Assembly: GCA_024275165.1 (NCBI GenBank)
Contig: JAJRZQ010000001.1
Location: 1 to 35,120, forward strand
Direction: 5' to 3'
Origin: a bacterium
GTDB lineage: Bacteria; SAR324; XYD2-FULL-50-16
Length of the DNA stretch: 35,120 bases
In this document: in pieces, positions 8,570-27,500 of the stretch
Position numbering within the stretch: position 1 is the first letter of the stretch
Layout of the letters: each line of letters opens with the position of its first letter
The notes under the pieces: model-generated
What the model was told of the DNA's origin: nothing
Seen by the model: only the letters and a program-made list of their open reading frames with translations
Databases searched by the model: none
Made by a program: the position numbers and the translations under genes

Positions 8570-8600
8570 AAGGTTCCTCTAAAAAATTCAGAGGCGTCTT
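8570..8600. repeat. Degenerate short palindrome resembling the ends of the dispersed repeat family
   Basis: AAGGTTCCTCT (8570-8580) and AGAGGCGTCTT (8590-8600) form an imperfect hairpin. The core CCTCTaaaaaattcAGAGG resembles the joined ends of the repeat family seen at 16172, 17619, 26257 and 27464. It lies just upstream of the CheA-like gene. Membership is tentative. Confidence 0.4.
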
Positions 8601-9733: not shown

Positions 9734-9767
9734 GTTAATTCGGCGTGTATATAGTTCCTGATTTTAA

Positions 9768-9960
9768 AAAACCACTGGGGTCTGGGGCTCTCAGCCCCAG
9801 CCCGCGGAGCATATTTAAATAGCGGGGCGCTTACGCCCAGCGAGCCGCCCCGCCGGCTGCGGGCAGAGCGTCATCAAGACGACCCGCCTGCAAGCGAACT
9901 CCGCGAAAGCAAAGGGAGCGGCCTGTAGGCTGCGCCTAGGTCGGTCCAGTTTACAAGAAA
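9768..9960 (-). other. Structured GC-rich intergenic element in the 9734-10148 gap (candidate RNA or palindromic repeat)
   Basis: The 415-base divergent gap holds a dense nest of hairpins: CTGGGGCT/AGCCCCAG (9782-9800, perfect 8 bp), GCGGGGCG/CGCCCCGC (9822-9853, perfect), GCGGG/CCCGC (9859-9887) with an inner CGTC/GACG, and a long-range stem CGCGGAG (9803-9809) with CTCCGCG (9899-9905) enclosing the last two. Read on the minus strand it ends in hairpin, ACCCCAGTGG, then TTTTTT near 9770, like a terminator. It is much more GC-rich than its surroundings. It could be a small RNA, the leader of the lipoprotein gene or a genome-dispersed repeat; strand is a guess. The rest of the gap (9961-10148) shows only weak short hairpins. 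Confidence 0.5.
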
Positions 9961-16171: not shown

Positions 16172-16323
16172 AGGAAACCCTAAAAAACTTAGAGTTTCCT
16201 GGTGGCGCATGGATGCAACGCCAAATCAATAAACAAAGTGAATTGATTTGTTTGGTGATCAGGAATTCACTTCCTGACACCAAAGCTGAAAAAGTCTGAG
16301 GATGGAATTTTTCAGAGGGTTTA
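16172..16323. repeat. Dispersed structured repeat, copy C, in the 16083-16398 gap
   Basis: A series of hairpins in the same order as copies at 17619 and 26257: stem 1 AGGAAAC/GTTTCCT (16172-16200), stem 2 TGGCG/CGCCA (16203-16223), stem 3 AATCAAT/ATTGATT (16224-16248), stem 4 TTTGGTG...CACCAAA with CAGGAA/TTCCTG (16251-16284, about 14 bp, one bulge), and a final stem CTGAAAAA/TTTTTCAG running into AGAGGGTTT (to 16323). Base pairs are kept while the sequence differs between copies. A second end sequence lies at 16395-16415. The rest of the gap (16324-16394) holds nothing recognisable. Confidence 0.7.
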
Positions 16324-16394
16324 AGATGAACCGGATTTTTTTCTTTTTCAGGGCGGGGCGCTTTTTTGCCGGAGAACGCAGCCAGGGACGGGGC

Positions 16395-16415
16395 TTTTTC
16401 AGAGGCTCTTATAGG
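16395..16415. repeat. Isolated end of the dispersed repeat, overlapping the 3' end of a gene
   Basis: TTTTTCAGAGGCTCTTATAG matches the right end of the copy at 26457-26475 (TTTTTCAGAGGCTTCTATAG). On the minus strand it encodes the last residues and stop of the reductase gene (Y-K-S-L-stop). It may be the outer right end of copy C. Confidence 0.6.
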
Positions 16416-17618: not shown

Positions 17619-17772
17619 GGGAACCTCTGAACAATGAAGAGGTTCCATGCAAGGCATGGTGCCTTGCTAAATCAAGATGTGTAACCTATTGATTTGTATT
17701 GAGGTTGTGGTTTTATTCCCCACGCTCAAGCATAAAAAACGCCTTGCGGGGAGTTTTTTTAGAGACTTTTAG
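17619..17772. repeat. Dispersed structured repeat, copy B, in the 17462-17827 gap
   Basis: Same hairpin order as the other copies: stem 1 GGAACCTC/GAGGTTCC (17620-17646), stem 2 GCAAGGC/GCCTTGC (17649-17667, identical to copy A), the linker AAATCAA with stem 3 AATCAA/TTGATT (17670-17694), a CATTCCCC-like segment (TTATTCCCCA), then AAAAAAC ... GTTTTTTT and AGAG. The right end is more degenerate (TTTTTTTAGAGACTTTT). It lies downstream of the SDR gene. The other parts of the gap (17462-17618, 17773-17827) show only a small TTTAGC/GCTAAA inverted repeat and A/T-rich sequence. Confidence 0.7.
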
Positions 17773-26256: not shown

Positions 26257-26475
26257 CTGGGAAACTCTGAAAAACGCGGAGTTTCCCAGCAAGGCGAGGA
26301 TGCCTTGCCAAATCAAAAAGCGCGACTTCTTGATTCGCGTTGGGATTGTGAATTTCATTCCCCACCGAAAAGACGAAAAAACTCGACGCGCCCCCAGGGC
26401 TATAATCAGCCCGAAGGGCACGAGCCTACCGCTTGAACAAGCGGTAGGCAAGGAGTTTTTCAGAGGCTTCTATAG
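26257..26475. repeat. Dispersed structured repeat, copy A, with an inserted hairpin block
   Basis: Stem 1 CTGGGAAACTC/GAGTTTCCCAG (26257-26289, perfect 11 bp), stem 2 GCAAGGC/GCCTTGC (26289-26308), linker AAATCAA with stem 3 AATCAA/TTGATT (26311-26335), a CATTCCCCA segment, then GAAAAAACTC (26374-26383) facing GGAGTTTTTC (near the right end). Between the last two lies extra sequence including a perfect palindromic hairpin GCCTACCGCTTG/CAAGCGGTAGGC. The right end TTTTTCAGAGGCTTCTATAG is the inverse of the left motif CTCTGAAAAA and overlaps the 3' end of the next gene. It resembles a MITE or structured-RNA repeat; no coding capacity is evident. Confidence 0.75.
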
Positions 26476-27463: not shown

Positions 27464-27500
27464 CTATAGGAAACTCTGAAAAATGCAGAGGTTCCTATAG
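27464..27500. repeat. Minimal copy D of the dispersed repeat: two ends back to back, in the 27354-27721 gap
   Basis: CTATAGGAAACTCTG (27464-27478) and CAGAGGTTCCTATAG (27486-27500) pair at 14 of 15 positions around AAAAATG. The arms match the left end and the right end (CTATAG included) of the larger copies, with no internal hairpins. It looks like a left and a right end joined after internal deletion. The remaining gap (27501-27721) shows no gene or clear signal. Confidence 0.7.

Follow-up and report, generated by a model that had tools for sequence, protein, structure and literature searches.

What are the three intergenic repeats in the window, a stretch of 35,120 nucleotides from a SAR324 bacterium, and what keeps their hairpins? 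A reading of the sequence alone had found the same ordered hairpins between inverted ends in three gaps, and had suggested that they might be either MITE-like, mobilised by a transposase encoded elsewhere, or RNA modules built of several hairpins. We conclude that they are copies of a non-coding, IS5-derived MITE, a short non-autonomous transposon; the family is unnamed, but it is of a known kind.

Extent, parts and dispersal of the family

The order of the parts was confirmed in all three copies, and the copy limits were refined to those in Table 1, with the right limit of the copy at 17620-17766 trimmed by eye. The ends of the main copy had been read wrongly. Its left end is GGAAACTCTGAAAAA and not CCTCTGAAAAA, its right end is TTTTTCAGAGGCTTC, and the CTATAG that had been assigned to the right end of 26257-26475 is mostly flank rather than element. 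In addition, two 27-bp solo hairpins had been overlooked. The main copy scored 140.5 bits with a covariance model whose alignment includes the copy itself. In the ORF listing for the window, only an 81-aa ORF extends into it.

Table 1. Copies of the element in the window and the parts of the full-length copy
Feature	Position	Strand	Remarks
Full-length 211-bp MITE copy, main sub-family	26260..26470	+	Flanks TCTG / TATA, without intact target duplication
Left-end hairpin, left TIR GGAAACTCTGAAAAA and inverted copy GGAGTTTCC	26260..26286	+	Helix 1; 93% of cells paired
Second hairpin, GCAAGGC/GCCTTGC	26289..26308	+	Helix 2; both-side changes in 4/7 pairs across sub-families
AATCAA/TTGATT stem	26311..26335	+	Helix 3; best-paired stem, 95% of cells
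Third hairpin, GTTGGGA/TCCCAAC-type	26339..26368	+	Helix 4; double changes in 6/9 pairs, only 78% of cells paired
Right-end hairpin, inner arm AAAAACTC, 60-nt insert, right end GAGTTTTTCAGAGGCTTC	26377..26470	+	Helix 5
Hairpin inside the 60-nt insert, GCCTACCGCTTG/AAGCGGTAGGC	26424-26449
Diverged copy, ~150-bp sub-family	16173..16322	+	Left flank TTAA; 138.9 bits (member of the model's own alignment)
Diverged copy, ~150-bp sub-family	17620..17766	+	117.1 bits (member of the model's own alignment)
27-bp solo form GGAAACTCTGAAAAATGCAGAGGTTCC	27469..27495	+	TATA on both sides; right-end allele GGTTCC; 23.2 bits
27-bp solo form GGTTCCTCTAAAAAATTCAGAGGCGTC	8572..8598	+	TTAA on both sides

A further right-end-like sequence, TTTTTCAGAGGCTCT followed by TATAG, lies at 16335-16412, ~88 bp past the right end of the 16173-16322 copy, and is perhaps the remnant of another copy.

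The further copies that the sequence-only reading called for are present. A DNA search of the bacterium's own genome (2.69 Mb, 47 contigs) gave at least 40 near-full-length copies of ~211 bp with 89-97% identity, and the window copy is 89-97% identical to at least 39 others. The TIR pattern GGAAMCTCTGAAAAA matched the genome 157 times at no more than one mismatch, and the reversed pattern not once. The assembly is 98% complete, with some contigs breaking in insertion sequences, and 1.53 of its 2.69 Mb (57%) were read as stretches. In these 1.53 Mb, 65 elements of 27-213 bp, lengths that leave no room for a transposase, were found at E < 1e-3, and extrapolation from this 57% of the genome puts the total in this one bacterium very roughly at a hundred. 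Although the ORFs of a crude map cover 90% of the sequence, 41 of 52 copies fall mostly in the remainder. One main-type copy, at C16:187849-188186 (L164:7849-8186), is fused directly to an old-type copy that has no left end, and looks like a recombinant of two elements.

The exact TIR occurs 111 times in this genome, as against 0-2 times per genome in 51 others from the class. By these counts and by the covariance model, no copy of the element was found in those 51 genomes, and the model matched in this genome only. Collections of E. coli, plasmid and phage DNA and viral contigs had no match to the element. Among the compared genomes, amplification therefore appears confined to this lineage. 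Another genome of the class (G025:C10:35560-35594) holds a 35-bp match (86%, E = 1.2e-4) to the element core, without matching ends.

Insertion sites and the probable source of the transposase

The element is bounded by a 15-bp TIR, GGAA[A/C]CTCTGAAAAA. The target duplication was examined in the 52 elements with both ends found. The 4-bp flanks were equal on the left and right in 28 of them, against a shuffled mean of 6.1 (maximum 13; 0 of 2000 shuffles), and the same 52 elements had no excess at lengths of 2, 3, 5 or 6, with 2-bp identity at chance. The target consensus is acTTAAgt. TTAA is commonest, CTAA and TTAG are present, and TATA, TTTA and TAAA occur as well. A 4-bp YTAR-type target duplication is the preference of the IS5 group; the present family follows it as a preference and not as a strict rule.

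An empty site was found within the genome. The copy at C41:10677-10887 splits a second dispersed repeat, which is unbroken at the same point in contigs C16, C28 and C29 and in the window; this is a single case, and the four bases on each side of the copy differ (AATA/TTTA). The second family, GCTCCGCGGGCTGGGGCTGAAAGCCCCAGACCCC...ACACGCCGGATTAATAA, is likewise intergenic, with copies at 9735-9841 of the window (- strand), C16:31-141, C16:127783-127892, C28:5724-5823 and C29:167548-167659 that are ~81-86% identical to the occupied copy at C41:10567. When genome contigs were scanned with the neighbouring gene, the only matches were distant homologues from other bacteria, and none provided a syntenic empty site. 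The family thus carries the marks of a MITE: TIRs, a fixed 4-bp target duplication, short multi-copy sequence without a transposase gene, and an empty site.

The sequence-only reading had advised looking for an insertion sequence with the same ends, and two IS5-family transposase remnants in the same genome do carry a similar type of TIR. At C29:166982-167400 the TIR GGAGGCTCTGAAAAG, with 3 mismatches to the MITE consensus, stands ~85 bp before an IS5-type ORF. Its product begins MSQLSFISLAHAKKELKPEKF and keeps the family resemblance for ~110 codons, then breaks off. A 205-bp deletion derivative at C29:104754-104958 is flanked by TTAA and TATA; it has a good TIR on either side and retains the 5' portion of a related ORF, 80% identical over 30 aa. 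The remnant ORF scored 67 bits for DUF772 and 96 bits for NF033581 (IS5_4), the latter under the full-length cut-off of 140, as the fragment is truncated.

Transposases 47-52% identical to the remnant were found on plasmids, including ISPa41-type elements and the IS5 element of Achromobacter xylosoxidans pA81. Their ends were located by an inverted-repeat scan near the gene, which gave clean pairs with matching 4-bp flanks for L254 and L257, an approximate pair for L256 and none for L253 and L255. The pA81 element, bounded by GGAACCTCTGAACAAG and GGAAGGTCTGAACAAG, lies between two TTAA flanks, and an ISPa41-type copy lies between two CTAA flanks. The MITE shares the TIR type GGAACCTCTGAACAAG and the kind of target with this IS5_4 type (NF033581); unlike it, the MITE has no transposase, its interior is unrelated, and its TIR continues AAAAA rather than ACAAG.

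Two other sources were considered. Several copies of an IS5-type element with the ends GAGACCTCTGCA occur at the end of C46 (L041 1333-2223) and at the starts of C28, C14 and C31, where contigs break; in the copy at the end of C46 the transposase frame is broken. The C29 remnant is preferred as the source of the driver, because the ends of the GAGACCTCTGCA element differ from those of the MITE at 4 of 15 positions. A transposase pseudogene at C29:121251 has no matching TIR.

The MITE interior is unrelated to the insertion sequence, so that descent rests on the ends. Because of the TIRs, the TTAA-type 4-bp duplication, the empty site, the IS5-family remnants with a similar TIR and the pA81 relative, we assign the element to the IS5-derived MITEs. 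Its source, and the provider of its transposase in trans, was very probably an ISPa41-like member of the IS5 family, of the NCBIfam type IS5_4. Such a transposase would recognise GGAA[A/C]CTCTGAAAAA and direct insertion to TTAA-like sites, of which 4 bp would be duplicated; it would have done the moving here, and its autonomous copy would since have been lost. No intact transposase of the IS5_4 type was found in the assembly, only truncated or deleted copies, and the identity between any two main copies is at most about 96%; the family may therefore now be immobile. The lack of an intact partner weighs against 'currently mobile' and not against 'derived from' IS5. The earlier suggestion of a transposase elsewhere is supported, and the MITE was almost certainly moved by an IS5-family transposase that survives only as fragments.

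Covariation between sub-families and decay in resident copies

The stems had been said to differ between copies while pairing is kept. A five-helix structure was tested on 17 diverse copies, in which 86.8% of the cells are paired. Pairs changed on both sides numbered 17 against 10.0 in shuffled alignments (sd 1.8; reached by 0 of 500 shuffles). Cells changed on both sides numbered 34, against 16.3 in shuffles (sd 3.1; 0 of 500) and 11-15 in slid versions of the structure. On a tree, 13 pair-preserving double changes were counted against 4.8 for re-paired columns (maximum 9) and 4-6 for slid versions. The covariation thus exceeds chance, as the sequence-only reading had predicted for a larger alignment. 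Because the same sequences served for drawing the structure by hand, part of its lead over the slid versions is built in; the shuffle and re-pairing controls suffer less from this but are not immune. RNAalifold retained only two helices on the alignment.

The helices do not contribute equally. Helix 3 is conserved with zero double changes and thus has no covariation support; in some copies, e.g. 16173-16322, it overlaps a second stem in pseudoknot order (by eye only). In helix 4 the pairing register varies by sub-family, and the 60-nt insert of the right-end hairpin is missing in the ~150-bp sub-families.

Within the main sub-family the picture is different. In 39 main copies the stem changes are nearly all one-sided, with one pair-preserving double change among roughly 180 changed stem cells. 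Outside the TIRs the rate of change was 0.045 in stems and 0.078 in unpaired positions, a gap that may reflect some stem constraint or uneven hot spots; with the highly polymorphic columns omitted, the rates were 0.027 and 0.034. The claim of kept pairing therefore stands across the sub-families, while individual main copies lose pairing freely. Since the sub-families covary and the main copies lose pairing in this way, the structure seems to be kept mainly along the lineages that spawn new copies and not in each resident copy.

The hairpins could be kept because they work as a functional RNA that serves the host at the insertion sites, be it an sRNA, a terminator or an RNase III site. The covariation between sub-families, the high stability of the fold in the window copy (z = -6.8), the position of most copies outside ORFs and their mild over-representation between convergent genes (15/51 vs 101/622; Fisher p = 0.03) all speak for it, and Nemis RNA has been proposed to be processed by RNase III (PMC2229807). 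We consider it improbable all the same: the window had no Rfam match (Rfam 15, gathering score), simple scans of the three copies gave no promoter- or terminator-like site, and in the 39 main copies the stems change almost without compensation and, with the highly polymorphic columns omitted, at near the loop rate. Of the proposed RNA module, the structure conserved between sub-families is what remains.

Host RNA function is the weaker rival for the covariation; the main one is mutational. Hairpin-templated repair (quasi-palindrome correction) would copy one arm onto the other without selection on structure. Near-perfect palindromes are a known substrate for template switching, the end hairpins are of this kind, and pair-preserving double changes are present in such hairpins. 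If such repair were frequent on resident copies, double changes would be expected in the 39 main copies, where a single cell was seen, and we regard this explanation as rather unlikely, though worth keeping in mind. For the IS5-derived MITE, the hairpin core would have been kept since foldable copies keep propagating. More tentatively, and with less conviction than the repair explanation commands, propagation of this DDE-type MITE might depend on a folded single strand, in that transposition or protection of the element would require the hairpins at its ends and the stems of its core. Only well-folding copies would then become sources, with compensatory change in source lineages and loss in resident copies.

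Short forms and comparison with known elements

At each end of the element the TIR and an inverted copy of itself form a hairpin. The inner arm at one end therefore repeats, in direct orientation, the TIR of the opposite end. Recombination between these short direct repeats would yield the 57-bp, 44-bp and many 27-bp forms. Besides a 151-bp form without the 60-nt insert of the right hairpin, 57-bp and 44-bp forms were observed; in the list of short forms, the ~104-bp entries without exception and several of the 44-bp ones are parts of longer copies. Exact 4-bp flanks were found in 7 of 18 solo-class hairpins against 1.4 expected (p = 4e-4), in a list that takes in truncated longer copies and the 17620 window copy, where divergence at the right end prevents a match to the pattern. 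The right-end allele GGTTCC is carried by 5 of 6 flank-matched solos and by 5 of 49 inner arms of full copies (Fisher 4e-4; counted by hand, one divergent solo omitted). Judging by this enrichment, internal deletion is the apparent origin of most 27-bp forms whose target duplication is intact. Several other solos carry the left-type allele GTTTCC, and so not all suit a simple deletion model.

The coexistence of 27-bp solo palindromes with longer forms could also suggest a REP/REPIN-like family with a tyrosine (RAYT) transposase, in which the 27-bp hairpin is the primary unit. This is very improbable, as the element has TIRs and, unlike REP/REPIN, a 4-bp target duplication, its ends match an element with a DDE IS5 transposase, and the solos with an intact duplication carry the right-end allele of the long form.

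Comparable in form is Correia/NEMIS of Neisseria, likewise a short non-coding TIR MITE in many copies, with stable stem-loops and with two main size classes set apart by an internal segment of ~50-60 bp (PMC2229807). Its TIR is 24 bp long with a TA motif at the ends (PMC2229807), whereas the present element has a 15-bp GGAA.. TIR and a 4-bp TTAA-like duplication. By description, RUP, ERIC and other bacterial MITEs are similarly non-autonomous, with AT-rich intergenic targets and predicted stable RNA folds (PMC10969869, PMC2229807), but in the present element the two ends form separate hairpins that enclose a core of several more. Since reviews describe stable stem-loops as usual in bacterial MITEs (PMC10969869), folding as such is not new.

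The part worth pursuing is the covariation between sub-families set against the decay in resident copies. Selection on MITE folding is rarely testable. The genome studied here holds old sub-families and a younger group of at least 40 copies, which lets selection in source lineages, seen as covariation, be separated from selection in resident copies, which show almost no covariation. In addition, the 27-bp solos with intact duplications suggest a route by which REP-like small palindromic repeats may arise from a longer MITE via deletion.
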